Origin: Methanoculleus frigidifontis | Lineage (GTDB): Archaea > Halobacteriota > Methanomicrobia > Methanomicrobiales > Methanoculleaceae | Direction of reading: 5' to 3' | DNA length: 64,000 nucleotides | NCBI RefSeq assembly: GCF_030464345.1 | Contig: NZ_VCYH01000003.1 | Coordinates: 1-64,000, forward strand | In this document: piece after piece, positions 8,238 through 55,145 of the stretch | Position numbering within the stretch: the first letter of the stretch is position 1 | How the letters are laid out: each line of letters starts with the position of its first letter | The notes under the pieces: generated by a model | The model's database searches: none | Seen by the model: the letters and a program-made list of their open reading frames with translations, nothing else | What the model was told of the DNA's origin: nothing | Translations under genes and position numbers: made by a program

Positions 8238-8819
8238 TCAGAGCGTTCCTTTTGTGCTGGGGATCCCGCCTTCCGAGGGGTCGGGGGCGACGGCGGCACG
8301 CAGGGCTCGTCCGAACGCCTTGAAGACTGCTTCAGCAATGTGGTGGTCGTTCCTGCCGGCGAACGTGACGTGGGCGGTGATCCCGGCGTTGGTGCAGAGG
8401 CTATAGAAGAAGTGTTCGATGAGATCGCCGGGGATGCCGCCCGGCCCCGCCGGAGAGAACGCACCCTTGAAGACAAGGTAGCCGCGCCCCCCGACGTCCA
8501 GGGCGACGCTGGCGAGGGCCTCGTCCATCGGCACCGCAGCGTCGGCGAACCGGGTGATCCCCCGGCCGTCGCCGACAGCCTCTGCGAGAGCCTGTCCGAG
8601 GACGATACCGATGTCCTCGATGGTGTGGTGGGCATCGACGGCGAGGTCGCCGGAAGCCCTGACCGCGAGATCGAGCCTGCCGTGCTTCCCGAGCGCCCCG
8701 AGCATGTGGTCGAAGAACGGAATGCCGGTATCGACGGTGCACGCTCCCGACCCGTCGAGATCGACGGAGAGGCTGATCTCGGTCTCGCGGGTCTGGCGCC
8801 GCCGCTCACTCCTGCGCAT
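8238..8819 (-). CDS. hisB: imidazoleglycerol-phosphate dehydratase
   Basis: A 193-residue enzyme of histidine biosynthesis that dehydrates imidazole glycerol phosphate. Both manganese motifs are present: HHTIED in the first half and DHHIAE in the second, on the duplicated fold. The start is the ATG at 8819, giving the family-like N-terminus [15 protein letters not shown]; upstream in-frame sequence belongs to hisA read in another frame. The first 14 bases overlap the 3' end of hisA, so the genes are coupled. Length matches monofunctional HisB, with no phosphatase domain. Confidence 0.95.
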
Positions 8820-9525
8820 GGGCCGCCTCCAGGGCTTCTTCGATCCGTATCTTCCCCGCATACAGGGCGGAGCCGAGCACCGCTCCCGCAGCCCCGGCAT
8901 CGCGGAGCGCCGCCACGTCTGTTGTCGAGGAGACGCCGCCCGAGGCGACGACGGGAAGGCGTGTCCGCGCGAGCAGCCGGACGATCGGTTCGAGGGCGAT
9001 CCCCTGCTGCAGTCCCTCCACATCGACGTTGGTGAAGAGGAGCGAGCCCGCGCCGAGGCTCTCGAAACGCTCGGCCCAGGCCAGGTAGTCGCCGGCCGAC
9101 TCCTCCCAGCCCTCGATCACCACCTCGCCGCCGCGGGCATCGACTCCGGCCATGACATGGCTGCTGCCGAACTCATCGGCGATAGCCCGGACGGCTCCCG
9201 GCTCCCTGACGGCGAGGGTGCCGAGGATCACCCGCTCTACGCCAAGCTCCAGCCATCCCGCGGCGTCCTCGACGCTCCGGATGCCGCCGCCAAGCTCTAC
9301 GGTGACCGCCGTCTCCCGGATAAGCCCGCGGATCAGGTCGGCATTCTTCGTTGCCTGTCCGAACGCCCCGTCGAGGTTGATGACGTGCAGGGCATCGGCG
9401 CCGGCGTCGAGCCATGTCCCGGCCCAGGCGAGCGGGTCGCCGTAGACCGTCGCCTCTTCGCGTCTTCCCTGGACGAGCTGCACGCACCGCCCGTCCAGGA
9501 TGTCAACTGCAGGAAGGATATCCAT
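8806..9525 (-). CDS. hisA: ProFAR isomerase (HisA)
   Basis: A 239-residue (beta/alpha)8 barrel enzyme that isomerises ProFAR in histidine biosynthesis. The N-terminal catalytic Asp is in the PAVDILDG segment. The mid-barrel phosphate-binding GGGIRS and the C-terminal SGGVSS plus AVLGSALY phosphate-binding ends are all in place. It lies between hisG (5-base gap) and hisB (14-base overlap) in the order hisG-hisA-hisB. Confidence 0.95.
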
Positions 9526-9530
9526 ACGTA

Positions 9531-10430
9531 TCAGCGTATCATTCGATCGATCGGCATAACAAGTATGTCTTTTGCCCCCGCCCGCTTGAGCTGGTTGATG
9601 AGCTGATAGACCCTTTCCTCACGGACGACCGCGTGGACGGCGACGGCGTTTTCGCTCGACGCGACGTCCATCACCGTCGGCCCGCCGAGGCCCGGAAGCA
9701 CCTGCTTCACGTCGTCGAGGGCATTCCGGTGGACGTTCATCATCAGGTAGCACTGCCCCTTCGCATGGATCACGCTCTCGAGGGCGAGGACGATTTCGTC
9801 GATCTTCTCCCGCTTCGCCGCGAGGGCGCCCTTGTTTGCGATCAGCACCGTGCTGCTCTGCAGGACTTCTTCCACAACGCGGAGGCGGTTGGTGCGCAGC
9901 GTCGTCCCCGAACTCGAGAGATCGACGATGGCGTCGGCGATGCCGAGGTGCGGCGTCACCTCGCAGGCGCCGCCGACCGTAACGATGGAGACGTCGATGC
10001 CGCGCTCCGCGAAGTATGCACGGGTTATCGTCGGAAACTCGGTGGCGATCCTGCTCCCCGCAAGATCGGCGACGGACGCAACCGGCGACTCCTCCGGCAC
10101 GGCGACGACGAGCGTTGCCCGTCCCATCCGGAGATCGAGGAGCTCCGCGACATCGGCGCAGCGCTCCATCACCATGTCTTTACCGGTGATCCCGAGGTCG
10201 GCGACGCCGTTTGCGACGTACTCGGGGATGTCGATCGGGCGGGCGAAGAGGATCTCCACGTGGGGGTCGTGTGTTCTGGCGATGAGCCGCCGTTCTCCGC
10301 CGTCCAGCATGTGGAGGCCGCTCTTTTCGATCAGTTCATTGATGGGCTGGGAGATCCTGCCTTTGTTCGGGACGGCGAGGCGGACGGTGTACTCGTCTCC
10401 TCCCGTCCGCTCGTGCGGCGTCGGGTTCAT
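9531..10430 (-). CDS. hisG: ATP phosphoribosyltransferase, long form
   Basis: A 299-residue HisG, first enzyme of histidine synthesis and the usual feedback target. N-terminal [11 protein letters not shown] and GITGKDMV segments and the PRPP-binding [14 protein letters not shown] stretch (about residues 169-182) identify it. The C-terminal 75 residues form the ACT-like regulatory domain of the long form, so no HisZ partner is needed. The ATG at 10430 is chosen; a TTG two codons earlier is also open. Only 26 bases separate it from the AdoMet synthetase stop, with a T6 run between, so cotranscription is uncertain. Confidence 0.94.
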
Positions 10431-49072: not shown

Positions 49073-49341
49073 CCTGGATTACACCGATTAAGGTGTTTTA
49101 CGGCAACCGTATTTTAATCCCCCGAAATTGCATGGGAGGCGCCCCTCTCTGCGAAGCGTGGAGTCCCGGAGTGCTCATCGCCGTCCGGCGGGAGCATGCG
49201 GTGCTCCCTGGGTGGAGAAACCTGCTTCGGAATGCCCGTATCGCCGAAGTGCATCAGAAAGGAGTTACTTTTTCCGAAAGTGGCCTGGAATCCGGAAGGA
49301 AATTTCGCTACTTTTTTAAATCGTTCGGTATTTTTTTCTGT

Positions 49342-51162
49342 ATGCGAAGACGTATCGCCAGAACTGACGTTTTACGGAGCGGCATCTGCCTGCTCGTCGC
49401 CTTCCTGCTTTTGTCAACGAATGCGGCGGCATGCACGACCTTTGCGATAACGCCCGGTGCATCCGAGGACGGATCGATGTATGTCGGGCACACGAACGAC
49501 GGCGTCGGGAAGTACTGGAGACAGATCGACGATATCAGCCTGATCTACGTACCGGCACGCGATCACGATCCTGGCGCGAAACGACCGGTCTTCTACGACC
49601 CGAACAGCGGTTCGGATGCGGCAGGAGGCAAGAAAGGCAGTAATGCAAGCCTGCTCCTCGGATATATCGACCAGGTGCCGCACACCTACGCCTACTACAC
49701 CTCGGCCTACGGTATGATGAACGAGCACCAGCTCCTCTCCGGCGAGTGCACCGATTACGCGAAGGTCGAGCTCGGCCCCGAGCCCGGAAAGAGGATCTTC
49801 TACTCCTCGGAGCTCGCCGACATAGCGCTTGAGCGCTGCACGAAGGCACGCGAAGCGGTCGAGCTCGTGGGCAGCCTGATCGAGACCTACGGCTACTACG
49901 GGACCGGCGAGACGCTCATCTTCGCCGACCCGGAGGAGGCGTGGGTCATCGAGATGTGCTCGAGCCTCGATCCGGAGGACGGCGGCGGTCTCTGGGTCGC
50001 GCAGAAGGTCCCGGACGGGGAAGTCTTTGTTGCGGCGAACGAGTTTCGGATCCGCGAGGTTGTTCCCGGGAACCCTGACCAGCTCTACTCAAGTGACCTC
50101 TTCAGCAAACTCGAAGAGGGCGGCGCCTGGTCCCCTGCGGACGGCCCCCTCGACTGGCTCGAGGCGGTCAGCTACGGTGAGTACGCGCATCCCTACTACT
50201 CGCTGATGCGGGTCTGGCGTATCCAGGACCGGCTCGCGCCGTCGCTCAACCTGAGCCCGTACGTCGAGAGCTCGTATACGGGTGCCTATCCCTTCAGCAT
50301 CAGGCCCGACGAGAAGGTCAACCTCACGGAGGCGTTCTCCCTCTTCCGTGACCACTACGAGGGAACCGACTTCGACCTCACAACCGGCACGGCGGCAGGG
50401 CCGTTCGGCAACCCCTACCGCTACCTCGGGCCCGACGACGCCCACTCGGACTTCCAGAACGCATCGTACCAGCAGATCCGCGGCGGCGCGAACCCGCGCC
50501 CGGTCTCGGCGGTCTTCTGCAGTTACAGTTACGTCGCCCAGGCACGCTCGCATCTCCCCGATCCGGTGGGCGGCATCCTCTGGTTCGGCCCGGCGGTCGC
50601 GTACGAGACGGTCTACGCTCCGCTGTATGCAGGCGCTACGAACGTATCCACCGCATACACCATCGGCGACCGGCTGCAGTACGACCCTGACAGCGCCTAC
50701 TGGACGTTCGACTTCGTGACGAACTGGGCGATGCTCCGCTACGATGCGATGATTGATACAATCCTCGCAGAGCAGAGCGCGCTTGAGGCCGGATCGATCG
50801 CCCTCGTGCAGGAGACCGACAGCAAGGCGGTCACGCTCATCGATGCCGGGGACGCAGAAGGGGCGGCACGCCTCCTTACGAACGTCACCGTCTCCCGGGG
50901 CGATGCGATCGTCGACGCCTGGCACGATCTCACCGGCACTCTGATCGTTACCTATTCGAACGGCCTCATAACCGACCCCGAGACCGAGGCGGTCGACGAA
51001 CCCGGGTATCCGGCGTGGTGGCTGAACGAGACCGGCTACCAGTACGGGCCGCGGGTCTACGAGCTTGAGGATCTTCGGGATACCCCCGGGCTGAACTACA
51101 CCGGCAAAACCGTCTGGGTCCCGAAGAACGCACCATTTGCAGAGATCCGGGATCTTATCTGA
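49342..51162 (+). CDS. secreted C69-family dipeptidase
   Basis: A 606-residue peptidase of the C69/U34 family. The signal peptide (about residues 1-30) ends just before ACTTFAI, so Cys31 becomes the new N-terminus and acts as the nucleophile of this N-terminal nucleophile hydrolase. VGHTNDG follows as in family members. The rest is soluble, so the enzyme is outside the cell and cuts dipeptides or short peptides. No ribosome site; a TATA-like TTTTTTAAATC near 49311-49321 would make the message leaderless. A T7 run follows the stop. Confidence 0.9.
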   Translation: MRRRIARTDVLRSGICLLVAFLLLSTNAAACTTFAITPGASEDGSMYVGHTNDGVGKYWRQIDDISLIYVPARDHDPGAKRPVFYDPNSGSDAAGGKKGSNASLLLGYIDQVPHTYAYYTSAYGMMNEHQLLSGECTDYAKVELGPEPGKRIFYSSELADIALERCTKAREAVELVGSLIETYGYYGTGETLIFADPEEAWVIEMCSSLDPEDGGGLWVAQKVPDGEVFVAANEFRIREVVPGNPDQLYSSDLFSKLEEGGAWSPADGPLDWLEAVSYGEYAHPYYSLMRVWRIQDRLAPSLNLSPYVESSYTGAYPFSIRPDEKVNLTEAFSLFRDHYEGTDFDLTTGTAAGPFGNPYRYLGPDDAHSDFQNASYQQIRGGANPRPVSAVFCSYSYVAQARSHLPDPVGGILWFGPAVAYETVYAPLYAGATNVSTAYTIGDRLQYDPDSAYWTFDFVTNWAMLRYDAMIDTILAEQSALEAGSIALVQETDSKAVTLIDAGDAEGAARLLTNVTVSRGDAIVDAWHDLTGTLIVTYSNGLITDPETEAVDEPGYPAWWLNETGYQYGPRVYELEDLRDTPGLNYTGKTVWVPKNAPFAEIRDLI

Positions 51163-51171: not shown

Positions 51172-51255
51172 AGCGGATGCCTGCCCATTCCTATCGGGAA
51201 GAAGCCCCTGCCCCCGGTGGAAACGCTCAAATGCCTTTCTGAACCATGTATCTGT

Positions 51256-52143
51256 ATGGATTACCGGGCGGTCGGGCGGCGGGTCGGTGAGTTGCTTGAG
51301 CCTGCGCACGAGAAAGACCGGGCAGTCCGGCGGCGGGTCTACGAGATACTGGAGCCTGCACGTGAGGGAGACCGGGCAAGCTACACCTTCGATGTCTTCA
51401 TCACGCTCGTGATCGTGGTGAACATCGCGACCATGATCTTTCTCTCCGTCCAGGAGGTGCGCGAGGATCTGCCTTGGGTCGCCCTCGCTCTCGCCCTGCT
51501 CGCGGGCGGGACACTGATCGTCTTCATCATCGAGTATATCCTCAGGCTCTGGTCCTGCGTCGAGGATCCCGACTACAGCAGGCCCGTCGCCGGAAGGCTC
51601 CGGTGGGCACGGACGCCCTACGCCCTGATTGACCTGATCGTCATCCTCCCCTACTTCCTGCTGATCTTCTTCGGCCTCAATATCACCGGGCTTGTCATCC
51701 TGCGTGTCTTCCGGCTCTTTAAGATCGTCCGCTACTCGGACTCCATCTCCCTCATCATCCGGGTGATCCGGGCCGAGAAGGACACTCTGCTCACGACCTA
51801 TGCGGTTCTCTTCATCGTCCTGATCGCAGCCGCGACCCTGATGTACCAGGTCGAGTACCCGGCCCAGCCCGAGAGTTTCTCCAACATTCCGGCGGCGATG
51901 TGGTGGGGGATCATCACCCTCACCACCACCGGCTACGGGGATATGGTCCCGGTAACGGTGGCGGGCAAGATCCTCGGCTCCGTCATCGCCCTGATCGGGA
52001 TCGGTATCTTCGCCCTCCCCGCCGGCATTCTCGCCTCCGGGTTTTCGAAGGTGCTTGCCCGGGAGATGGACGACGAGGTCTACCTCTGCCCGCACTGCAG
52101 GCAGGAAGTGAAGCAGAGCGAGCTCTGGAGAAAGGGAGACTGA
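51256..52143 (+). CDS. voltage-gated potassium channel (Kv-like)
   Basis: A 295-residue six-helix cation channel. S1 starts near residue 48 (FDVFITLVIVVNIATMIF), S4 carries spaced Arg/Lys (LRVFRLFKIVRY) and the selectivity filter is TTTGYGDM. After S6 a short cytosolic tail holds one CPHC pair. It is longer than a two-helix channel and shorter than animal Kv. The next gene begins 32 bases later with its own GAGGTGA ribosome site, so cotranscription is likely. Confidence 0.9.
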   Translation: MDYRAVGRRVGELLEPAHEKDRAVRRRVYEILEPAREGDRASYTFDVFITLVIVVNIATMIFLSVQEVREDLPWVALALALLAGGTLIVFIIEYILRLWSCVEDPDYSRPVAGRLRWARTPYALIDLIVILPYFLLIFFGLNITGLVILRVFRLFKIVRYSDSISLIIRVIRAEKDTLLTTYAVLFIVLIAAATLMYQVEYPAQPESFSNIPAAMWWGIITLTTTGYGDMVPVTVAGKILGSVIALIGIGIFALPAGILASGFSKVLAREMDDEVYLCPHCRQEVKQSELWRKGD

Positions 52144-52174
52144 CCGGTTTTTCGATCTGTAGCGAGGTGATCGC

Positions 52175-53446
52175 ATGCCGGAGAAGAGATATGCACTGTT
52201 TGCCGTGGCCGTATGCTGCGTGCTGGTTGCCGGGGCCGCCCTGGTCTTCGGTATCGGCGGCTCCGGGACGCCGGCTGCGGAGAGAAACCTGCACGTCGCC
52301 CTGTATCCGGGTATCGTGGACGTCAACGGCGACGACCACCAGCGGACCGTTGCCATGCTGACCGGCCGGTTCGAGCAGCAGTATCCCGGCATCAACCTGA
52401 CGCTCGAGATCTCCGGAAAGTACGACACCTATGACCTTGCGAACATCCCGCGGGTCTTTGCGCCGGAGGGTCCCGACCTGGTCGTCGTCGACCTGACGAT
52501 CCTCGGCCGGCTCGTCGCCGGCGGCTATATCCGGCCCTACACTCCGGAGAGCCCGGAGGCGGCGGCGCTCCTCGAGGAGAACCTTGATGGGGTCGTCGGG
52601 CCGTTCCGGGAGATGGGCGTGGCCGACGGTACCGTCTACGCCATCCCGACCTGGCTCTGCAGCGAGTTCCGGTTCTCCCGGACTCCCCCGTCGGACGCGC
52701 CGGCGAGCGGCTACTTCAGCGGGAGCTGGACGCTGCCCGAGCTCTACCTCTCCGGGTATGCCTCAAACTACGGAGACGACCCGGCGCTGCTTGCCCGCGC
52801 ACTCGCCGCTGCCGCAGAGAACAACCTCGACGAGTATACCCTGCAGGGGCTTGAGGCCTCCTTCGCCGAGGGCACCGATGCGGAGGGGCGGAACCGCTGC
52901 CTGAACGGCTACTACAACGATTCTTATCCGGGAGCGCGGGACTTTGCGGAGCACCGGACCGACCGGTATACCGGCTTTTCTGAGACCTTCCGGATCGTCC
53001 TCCTGACAAACCCGGCGGTCGCAGACGAGGAGATCGCGATCCAGGGGGCGGTCTTCGGCGACGGGACCCACCCCTCGCTCGCCTGGGCGGACGGGTTCGT
53101 CCTGAACGCGCATGCGGACCCGTCGGTGACCGCCGATGCCCTCCGGTTCGTCGCGTTCTACAACAGCCCGGAGACCAAGGAATTCCTCGCCTTCAGCCTC
53201 GACGCCGTCAATGCGTCGGCCCGGGTTCCCCGGTACCTGATGCCGGCGAGCAGCGGGTTCTACACGCTTCCGGGGGCAGTCGAGGACCCCTACTACCCGG
53301 AGTTTTACCGGATCCTATCGGGCATGTCCGCCTATCCCGTCTGGGGCATTCCCGCGACCGCCGATGCCATCTTCTGCAACATCGCGCGGGCGCTCTCTGC
53401 CGACGGCATGGATATCGATGCCGGGGACTGTGCGGTCGCCGGGTGA
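52175..53446 (+). CDS. thiaminase-I-like secreted protein
   Basis: A 423-residue protein with an N-terminal hydrophobic export or anchor segment (about residues 8-28), then a periplasmic-binding-protein type II fold. It resembles bacterial thiaminase I as I remember it, in order: VALYPGIVD opening, DLVVVDLTILGRLVAGGYIRPY, VYAIPTWLCSEFRFSR, GFSE and PRYLMPASS-FY-DPYYPEFYRIL. The Cys162 and Glu270 sit where the active-site Cys and Glu of thiaminase I do. It would break down or exchange thiamine outside the cell, but this needs proof. It may also be a plain binding protein. It follows the K+ channel gene. Confidence 0.65.
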   Translation: MPEKRYALFAVAVCCVLVAGAALVFGIGGSGTPAAERNLHVALYPGIVDVNGDDHQRTVAMLTGRFEQQYPGINLTLEISGKYDTYDLANIPRVFAPEGPDLVVVDLTILGRLVAGGYIRPYTPESPEAAALLEENLDGVVGPFREMGVADGTVYAIPTWLCSEFRFSRTPPSDAPASGYFSGSWTLPELYLSGYASNYGDDPALLARALAAAAENNLDEYTLQGLEASFAEGTDAEGRNRCLNGYYNDSYPGARDFAEHRTDRYTGFSETFRIVLLTNPAVADEEIAIQGAVFGDGTHPSLAWADGFVLNAHADPSVTADALRFVAFYNSPETKEFLAFSLDAVNASARVPRYLMPASSGFYTLPGAVEDPYYPEFYRILSGMSAYPVWGIPATADAIFCNIARALSADGMDIDAGDCAVAG

Positions 53447-53651
53447 CGGGAGATCCTGTTCTCTTCTTTTTCTCTGGCTTTTCCGTATTCCGGCGTTTGC
53501 CTGCATTCTCCCCGTGGGCGATACGACACCCCGATGCTGCTATGCATCTGCTTTGCGAGGAGCGAACCGTGGTGCACGTCTCCAGGGGGCATGATTGCGC
53601 CCTGACCGGGGGATAGTCCCGGAGCCGGAACTTTTTACGTGAAAAAAGGAG

Positions 53652-55145
53652 TTATACCCCGACGACCGGAGCCTCGGGTGCGTCTTCGTCGAGGTTGTCG
53701 GCGTGGATCTCGTCGCGGCTCAGGAAAGCCAGGACGACGACGGCAAGCGATATGAGGAAGACGGCGACGAAGACCAGGTCGAACCCGGTGGCAAGCACAC
53801 CGATCCTGATATCCGCCGGAGAAGACTCGGTAACGTGGCGGTGCGACCCGACCGTGAGCATCGCCTGGATGAAGATCATGCTGATGAAGGAGATCCCAAG
53901 GGTCATCGGGCCGTAGCGCTCTACGTTGATGAGGCTTGAGACCATGCCGTGTTTGTCGCGGGAGGCCATGCTCATCGCCATGTTCGTGCCGGGCGAGACC
54001 AGGAGGCCGACACCGAAGCCCACAACGGCGAGTGCGCCGACGATATAGAGCATCGGGCTCTCCGCCGAGAAGAACTGGAACAGCAGGTATCCGGCGGAGA
54101 CGACGAGCGCGCCGGCGACGCAGAGTTTCCGGTTCCCGATGCTGTTGATCAGCATCCCGGAGAGAATGCCGCTCACCATCATGGCAACCGAGAGGGCGGT
54201 GAGGACGAGCCCGGAGGTCGACGGGTCAAAACCCTTCACCAGTTCGAGGAAGAACGGGAGGAGGTAGTTGACGCCGCCGAAGAGGAAGTAGGAGAGGACG
54301 AGCATGAGGTTGACGTACAGGAAGTTCCTGTTCGTAAAGAGCCGGAAGTCGAGCAGCGGATCGCTCAGCTTCAACTCGTGGAGGACGAGGTAGCCGAGCG
54401 CGATCACCGCTGCTGCGAGTGCTGCGAGGATGGTCGGATCGGTCCAGCCGAGCGTCGATCCCTCGCTGACCGCATAGATCAGCGACCCGAGCCCGACGAA
54501 GACCAGAAGTGCGCCGAGCCGGTCGAACCGCGAGGGCGCAGCCTGCGCTGCCGGGCTTGCCGGTATCGCGTACGAACCGATCAGGATGGCCGCGATGCCC
54601 ACCGGGACGTTGATGTAGAAGATCCAGTTCCAGGAGAGGTACTGGGTCAGGACACCACCGAGGATCGGGCCTGCCGCGGTTCCGAGCGCCGCGAAGGTGG
54701 TCACCATGCCCATCGCCTTCCCCTTCATCTTCATCGGGAAGAATGCGGCAACCAGCGCCGGCGCGATGGCGCCGATCATCGCCCCGCCGATCGCCTGGAC
54801 GACCCTTGAGCCGATCAGCATGCCGAACGAGTTGAAGACCTCCGGGAAAAAGCCGCAGAAGAACGAGCCCGCGGTGAAGACCGCAAACCCTGCGATGAAT
54901 ATGATCTTGAAACCGATTCTGTCCGCCATCTTGCCGAAGATGAGGACGCATCCGGTCAGCACGAGGAGGTACGCCGTAGCGACCCAGGCGACCGTCGTCG
55001 AGGGGAGGTTGAAGATCTCCGATATCGTCGGGAGGGCGATGTTCACGATCGTCCCGTCGAGCGCCGTCATGAACGTCGCCAGGGAGACCGAGATCAGGAT
55101 CAGCGTGTAATGCCGCCCCGAGGCATCGCCGGTTGATTGATGCAT
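53652..55145 (-). CDS. MFS multidrug efflux transporter (EmrB/QacA, DHA2 type)
   Basis: A 497-residue transporter with about 14 membrane helices. ALDGTIVNIALPTIS in helix 1 is the DHA2 motif, GKMADRIGFK the MFS loop 2-3 motif, and GPILGGVLTQYLSWNWIFYINVP the antiporter helix 5 region. It exports drugs or amphipathic compounds with proton exchange. It stands alone and diverges from nothing; the region upstream has a likely promoter. Confidence 0.92.
   Translation of the reverse strand: MHQSTGDASGRHYTLILISVSLATFMTALDGTIVNIALPTISEIFNLPSTTVAWVATAYLLVLTGCVLIFGKMADRIGFKIIFIAGFAVFTAGSFFCGFFPEVFNSFGMLIGSRVVQAIGGAMIGAIAPALVAAFFPMKMKGKAMGMVTTFAALGTAAGPILGGVLTQYLSWNWIFYINVPVGIAAILIGSYAIPASPAAQAAPSRFDRLGALLVFVGLGSLIYAVSEGSTLGWTDPTILAALAAAVIALGYLVLHELKLSDPLLDFRLFTNRNFLYVNLMLVLSYFLFGGVNYLLPFFLELVKGFDPSTSGLVLTALSVAMMVSGILSGMLINSIGNRKLCVAGALVVSAGYLLFQFFSAESPMLYIVGALAVVGFGVGLLVSPGTNMAMSMASRDKHGMVSSLINVERYGPMTLGISFISMIFIQAMLTVGSHRHVTESSPADIRIGVLATGFDLVFVAVFLISLAVVVLAFLSRDEIHADNLDEDAPEAPVVGV

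Follow-up and report, generated by a model that had tools for sequence, protein, structure and literature searches.

We identified a gene for a thiaminase-I-like protein in the 64,000-nucleotide stretch of archaeal DNA analysed here (the window). The predicted product is probably a thiaminase-I-type enzyme that is exported or anchored in the membrane, as indicated by its relatives and by a structural model. We regard it as a divergent form of an enzyme already known, here in an archaeon. Thiaminase I, which destroys vitamin B1, has been described mostly in a small number of bacteria and eukaryotes. No report of an archaeal thiaminase I was found in the literature searched, and a thiaminase-I-like enzyme is, as far as we can tell, new for archaea. 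The original prediction had proposed the resemblance to thiaminase I, and it was right in substance. It was carried by a profile built without the window protein, by the Cys and Glu columns of the family alignment and by a Foldseek search; single-sequence searches were weak. The gene and its surroundings contain the following features.

51217 to 52143, + strand: Kv-type K+ channel gene, upstream, possibly co-transcribed (Pfam Ion_trans, E 1.1e-30)
52153 to 53655, no strand: stretch missing at the syntenic site of the sister species G001, which has 44 bp there (blastn against L073)
52164 to 52171, + strand: Shine-Dalgarno-like GAGGTGAT, ending 3 nt 5' of the ATG (read from the sequence)
52175 to 53446, + strand: coding sequence of the thiaminase-I-like exported protein, predicted, 423 aa plus stop, ATG start (ORF, TIGR04541, family profile, Foldseek)
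52190 to 52246, + strand: hydrophobic N-terminal segment, residues 6-24, putative Sec signal or membrane anchor (hydropathy, model helix)
52304 to 52306, + strand: Tyr44, conserved as Tyr or Phe in every relative, opposite the Tyr of the 2THI VAIYP segment in the alignment
52430 to 52432, + strand: Tyr86, invariant (alignments)
52490 to 52492, + strand: Asp106, invariant (alignments)
52658 to 52660, + strand: Cys162 in IPTWLC, predicted catalytic nucleophile, equivalent to Cys113 of 2THI (alignment)
52682 to 52729, + strand: lineage-specific in-frame shortening, about 20 residues (one helix) missing (alignments)
52982 to 52984, + strand: Glu270 in GFSE, predicted catalytic base, equivalent to Glu241 of 2THI (alignment)
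53090 to 53092, + strand: Asp306, invariant (alignments)
53652 to 55145, - strand: MFS transporter gene, downstream and convergent (Pfam MFS_1, E 1.2e-52)

Cys162 in IPTWLC and Glu270 in GFSE were present at these codons as originally described. The hydrophobic N-terminus that had been noted was also seen. The mean Kyte-Doolittle value of the segment at about residues 6-24 reached 2.8 over 15 residues, and the segment formed a helix in the AlphaFold2 model. This helix is predicted to act as the export signal expected for the wider thiaminase I family. No lipobox Cys was found after it.

Direct searches with the single sequence were performed against several collections. TIGR04541 (thiamine pyridinylase) was the only NCBIfam match of the window protein, with E 7.9e-8 and 31.6 bits against a curated equivalog cut-off of 175 bits. 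Since this cut-off was not reached, we filed the protein as thiaminase-I-like and not as a member of TIGR04541. A TIGR04541 search of the phylum was non-specific and gave sub-cut-off matches also in three control genomes, so that such a match alone means little. In Pfam, the only match was SBP_bac_1 (PF01547) at E 0.0083 and 16.6 bits, which is below the gathering threshold of 26 bits and does not make the protein a member by score. The TENA_THI-4 domain of thiaminase II (TenA, PF03070) was not found in it by Pfam. The phmmer search against the PDB gave no thiaminase, and its only sensible match was a trehalose/maltose-binding protein (E 0.046). When the protein was searched against the phylum genomes, ordinary solute-binding proteins alone were returned, apart from its own gene. 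The viral fold search gave nothing of note, and the defence library gave no match. On the sequence data, direct searches would leave undecided whether this is a thiaminase or a solute-binding protein, and it is the relatives that decide.

A tblastn search led to P0002, a protein with 24% identity to the window protein, encoded on the Bradyrhizobium japonicum conjugative plasmid p1S06B (L008:5860-7158). P0002 was annotated as an extracellular solute-binding protein, and it is a clear thiaminase homologue (TIGR04541, 109.6 bits; 2THI, E 1.8e-20). A hand-written DNA pattern for [YF][AG]xPxWLCxx[FL]xF was then scanned over species genomes. It gave 40 matches, 13 of which lay in ORFs that aligned with the family as bacterial homologues; the remaining matches look like chance. 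G-[YF]-S-E was located 122-128 residues from the motif start in 12 of the 13 ORFs, the exception being truncated at the locus end. Pro158, Trp160, Leu161, Cys162 and Phe167 were fixed by the scan pattern, and their conservation in the bacterial set was therefore not independent evidence. The GxSE motif, Tyr86, Asp106, Tyr191 and Asp306 were outside the pattern, and P0002, 2THI and the proteins of the archaeal genomes G520 and G522 were found independently of it.

These relatives included a subgroup with a W-[L/I]-C motif, to which Nostoc paludosum L034, Anabaena azotica L011, Sorangium cellulosum L027, Eilatimonas L037, P0002 and others belonged. We know of no member of this subgroup that has been assayed. 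Four bacterial relatives (L012, L015, L037 and L044) had additional sequence N-terminal to the thiaminase-like part, which may be a separate domain. Phylum matches L002, L003, L061 and L062 spanned the first domain only. A Nonomuraea match (H3) was rejected as an ordinary solute-binding protein that adjoined a permease and was without the Cys. Profile A2 matched 2THI at 3.9e-46 and 4KYS at 2.5e-44, and non-thiaminases were matched at 4.1e-10 or worse.

An alignment of 15 sequences including 2THI was used to compare the active sites. Cys162 fell on Cys113 of 2THI, the catalytic Cys of the first cleft strand, and Glu270 fell on Glu241, the catalytic Glu of the G-[YF]-[ST]-E motif. The 2THI piece began at residue 7, and literature numbers are obtained by adding 6 to the piece numbers. 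Both columns were invariant in the 15 sequences, which agreed with the original placement of this pair at the thiaminase I active site. Tyr86, Asp106, Tyr155, Pro158, Tyr191, Gly267, Ser269 and Asp306 were also the same in all 15 sequences. In the C. botulinum enzyme, we take the thiamine site to be lined by Tyr46, Tyr80, Asp94 and Asp302, the counterparts of Tyr44, Tyr86, Asp106 and Asp306. The identity of the window protein to 2THI was 21.5%. Since the Cys and Glu were invariant in the family and a profile built without the window protein found the gene, the resemblance was beyond chance. In known enzymes, activity is lost on mutation of the catalytic Cys, through C113S in P. thiaminolyticus and C143S in C. 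botulinum (PMC10147936), and CcThi1 carrying both C148A and E269A shows no activity (PMC10499793). CcThi1 is a working thiaminase I at only 17.95% identity to 2THI, with a Km for thiamine of 22.3 uM (PMC10499793).

The fold was predicted with AlphaFold2 from 14 sequences, and the model had a pLDDT of 83.8 and a pTM of 0.85. Foldseek against the PDB gave thiaminase I 4KYS as the best match (E 7.1e-17, TM 0.77 by target length, rmsd 3.4) and thiaminase I 3THI as the second (TM 0.74), these two being ranks 1-2 of 1373 matches. Sugar-binding proteins were found in the lower ranks, with TM 0.66 or less by target length. The original prediction had named a best match to an ordinary sugar-binding protein, with the Cys and Glu lying off the cleft, as the outcome that would speak against it; the best match was instead thiaminase I, and the two residues aligned with the catalytic pair of 2THI. 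The computation showed, for the model, a two-domain periplasmic-binding-protein fold whose closest solved structure is thiaminase I. Compared with all aligned relatives, the protein was shorter by about 20 residues, a helix that directly follows the Cys strand in them. The G520 and G522 proteins kept this helix, so the loss arose in the lineage of the window.

A profile of 12 bacterial homologues, from which the window protein was left out, was run over 232 genomes of the order; terms of kinship such as same family or same order follow the genome set used. The profile recovered the window gene in two pieces (E 8.8e-43 and 6.4e-22). It also found intact homologues in two other genomes of the order, G520 at E 1.7e-81 and G522 at E 3.2e-82, and gene remnants in G409 (L054:1447-1770) and G507 (L053:960-1469). 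This was the search of other methanogens suggested with the original prediction. The other genomes among the 232 gave no match to this profile, and 393 genomes drawn from the phylum gave no further full-length match. The two archaeal homologues also matched TIGR04541 (E 9.3e-17 and 2.7e-12). Of the gene, G409 had only a short C-terminal stretch, next to the same histidine-kinase gene that adjoins the intact copies in G520 and G522. This shared position indicated that the gene is being lost in G409, and the remnants in G409 and G507 suggest repeated loss in the order.

Trees were built both with solute-binding proteins as an outgroup and without them. The three archaeal proteins formed one clade with support of 98/96, nested in a group of cyanobacterial, alphaproteobacterial, acidobacterial and myxobacterial proteins, and the window protein was on a long branch. 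We propose that the archaeal genes descend from one bacterial-type lineage that was kept in few species.

The host is a methanogenic archaeon, as the window carries methanogenesis markers 2 and 4 and a eukaryotic/archaeal-type uL16. An archaeal-type methionine adenosyltransferase is also encoded in it. The neighbours of the gene are a K+ channel, a C69 peptidase and an MFS transporter, and an ABC permease or ATPase is not adjacent. The C69 peptidase ORF at 49093-51162 probably starts downstream of 49093; its Pfam match takes in only residues from 113 onwards, and resemblance to the G001 locus sets in near 49304. In G001, the C69 peptidase, K+ channel and MFS genes follow one another directly, and 44 bp stand where the window has about 1.5 kb. 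These contiguous flanks indicated a single-gene insertion in the window or a clean loss in G001. No repeats, transposon or mobile-element hallmarks were found at the junctions of the 1.5 kb stretch. The GC3 of the gene was 0.86 compared with 0.79-0.87 in its neighbours, which is ordinary for the window.

Based on thiaminase I chemistry, thiamine or a close aminopyrimidine analogue would be bound in the cleft. Cys162 would attack the pyrimidine ring and expel the thiazole, with Glu270 as the base, and the covalent intermediate would be resolved by a second nucleophile (thiol or amine). Catalysis of this type is quite probable. On a modest balance of probability, thiamine would be the true substrate. 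The long branch and the loss of about 20 residues after the Cys strand mean that the substrate may have changed. In the host genome, ThiC was matched twice and Thi4 was present, but a search for TenA found nothing. Thiamine synthesis by the host is therefore probable, and it shows no obvious need to salvage thiamine through this enzyme. At least two near-full-length ThiC matches were found in each of G000, G001, G005, G011, G520 and G409. No TPP riboswitch was found in the window or in seven genomes. Most economically, the enzyme would act on thiamine outside the cell and destroy it, most likely against thiamine-dependent neighbours. This role is suggested because the host appears to make its own thiamine, and we regard competition as possible, on the doubtful side.

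Several other explanations were weighed against a thiaminase-type enzyme. The protein could be a non-catalytic solute-binding protein for thiamine or a sugar, having only the fold in common with thiaminase I and an incidental Cys/Glu pair. The sub-threshold SBP_bac_1 match, the trehalose/maltose-binding protein found by phmmer and the sugar-binding proteins in the lower Foldseek ranks fit this reading. However, thiaminase I was the best match by profile and by fold, the Cys, Glu, Asp and Tyr were invariant across several bacterial phyla and archaea, and no ABC-type transporter genes were adjacent to a gene that stood alone in the sister-species comparison; we consider such a protein improbable. 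An enzyme of thiaminase type acting on another aminopyrimidine or thiazolium compound, for example a thiamine antagonist or degradation product, is unlikely but worth keeping in view. The long branch, the lost helix and the low identity to 2THI leave room for a changed pocket, but the invariant Tyr86, Asp106 and Asp306 are common to thiaminase I itself. It is rather unlikely that the enzyme serves salvage by cleaving external thiamine or its breakdown products and supplying pyrimidine or thiazole to the cell. A contribution of bacterial thiaminase to thiamine salvage has been mentioned (PMC10147936), whereas the biosynthetic genes of this host do not make a need for salvage apparent.

The adjacency of the K+ channel noted in the original prediction held, with a gap of 31 nt between the channel gene and the thiaminase-like gene downstream of it, both on the + strand. 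A pair that works together or an operon could be read from this gap and from G520, a genome of another family of the order, where a related channel (38% identity to the window channel) is the divergent neighbour of the homologous gene (L056:7258-8187 and 8389-9849). However, a channel 85% identical to that of the window is at the same place in G001 without the gene, so the functional link is weak. The G409 remnant is not beside a channel, and channels occur in genomes without the gene. We consider a functional pair very unlikely, and the adjacency is probably incidental. Bacterial contamination of the assembly is hardly credible. Outside the archaea its closest relatives are bacterial, and few archaea have the gene, but it lies within a 349,826-base contig carrying methanogen marker genes, its flanks are syntenic with the sister archaeon, its GC3 is that of its neighbours, and other archaeal genomes have homologues.

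A thiaminase-I-like enzyme remains the preferred explanation. The whole scenario, which we offer tentatively and with considerable doubt, is a small archaeal clade acquired from bacteria and sporadic in few methanogens of one order. These prototrophs would destroy surrounding vitamin B1 and limit thiamine-dependent competitors in anoxic communities. If active, the protein would be an archaeal thiaminase I and would give methanogens a route to affect vitamin B1 supply in anoxic communities, sediments, digesters and guts among them. The question of what thiaminase I is for would become testable in an organism that seemingly makes its own thiamine. In addition, the curated thiaminase model misses a whole subgroup from archaea, cyanobacteria, alphaproteobacteria and myxobacteria, and at least one protein of this subgroup carries a solute-binding-protein annotation.

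Compared with known systems, TbpA/ThiB and maltose-type ABC solute-binding proteins have the same overall fold as the window protein. No catalytic Cys/Glu pair is expected in them, and they are normally encoded with an ABC permease and ATPase, which are absent beside the window gene. The W-[L/I]-C subgroup has the same motifs and 20-32% identity over most of the window protein, but its members are bacterial and keep the helix that the window protein lacks. The myxobacterial CcThi1, compared by description, is similar as a highly divergent thiaminase I that was first annotated as a solute-binding protein and requires its catalytic Cys and Glu; unlike the window protein, it is a lipoprotein delivered via outer-membrane vesicles (PMC10499793). 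The search of myxobacterial genomes gave no identified CcThi1 sequence. Thiaminase I itself (TIGR04541; 2THI/3THI/4THI of Paenibacillus thiaminolyticus and 4KYS of Clostridium botulinum) is a thiamine pyridinylase. It has in common with the window protein the export (predicted here), the group II periplasmic-binding-protein fold, the Cys and Glu columns and the invariant Tyr86, Asp106, Tyr191 and Asp306. The window protein differs from it in having PxWLC and not PQILC, in the absence of one helix of about 20 residues, in a score below the curated cut-off and in its archaeal host.
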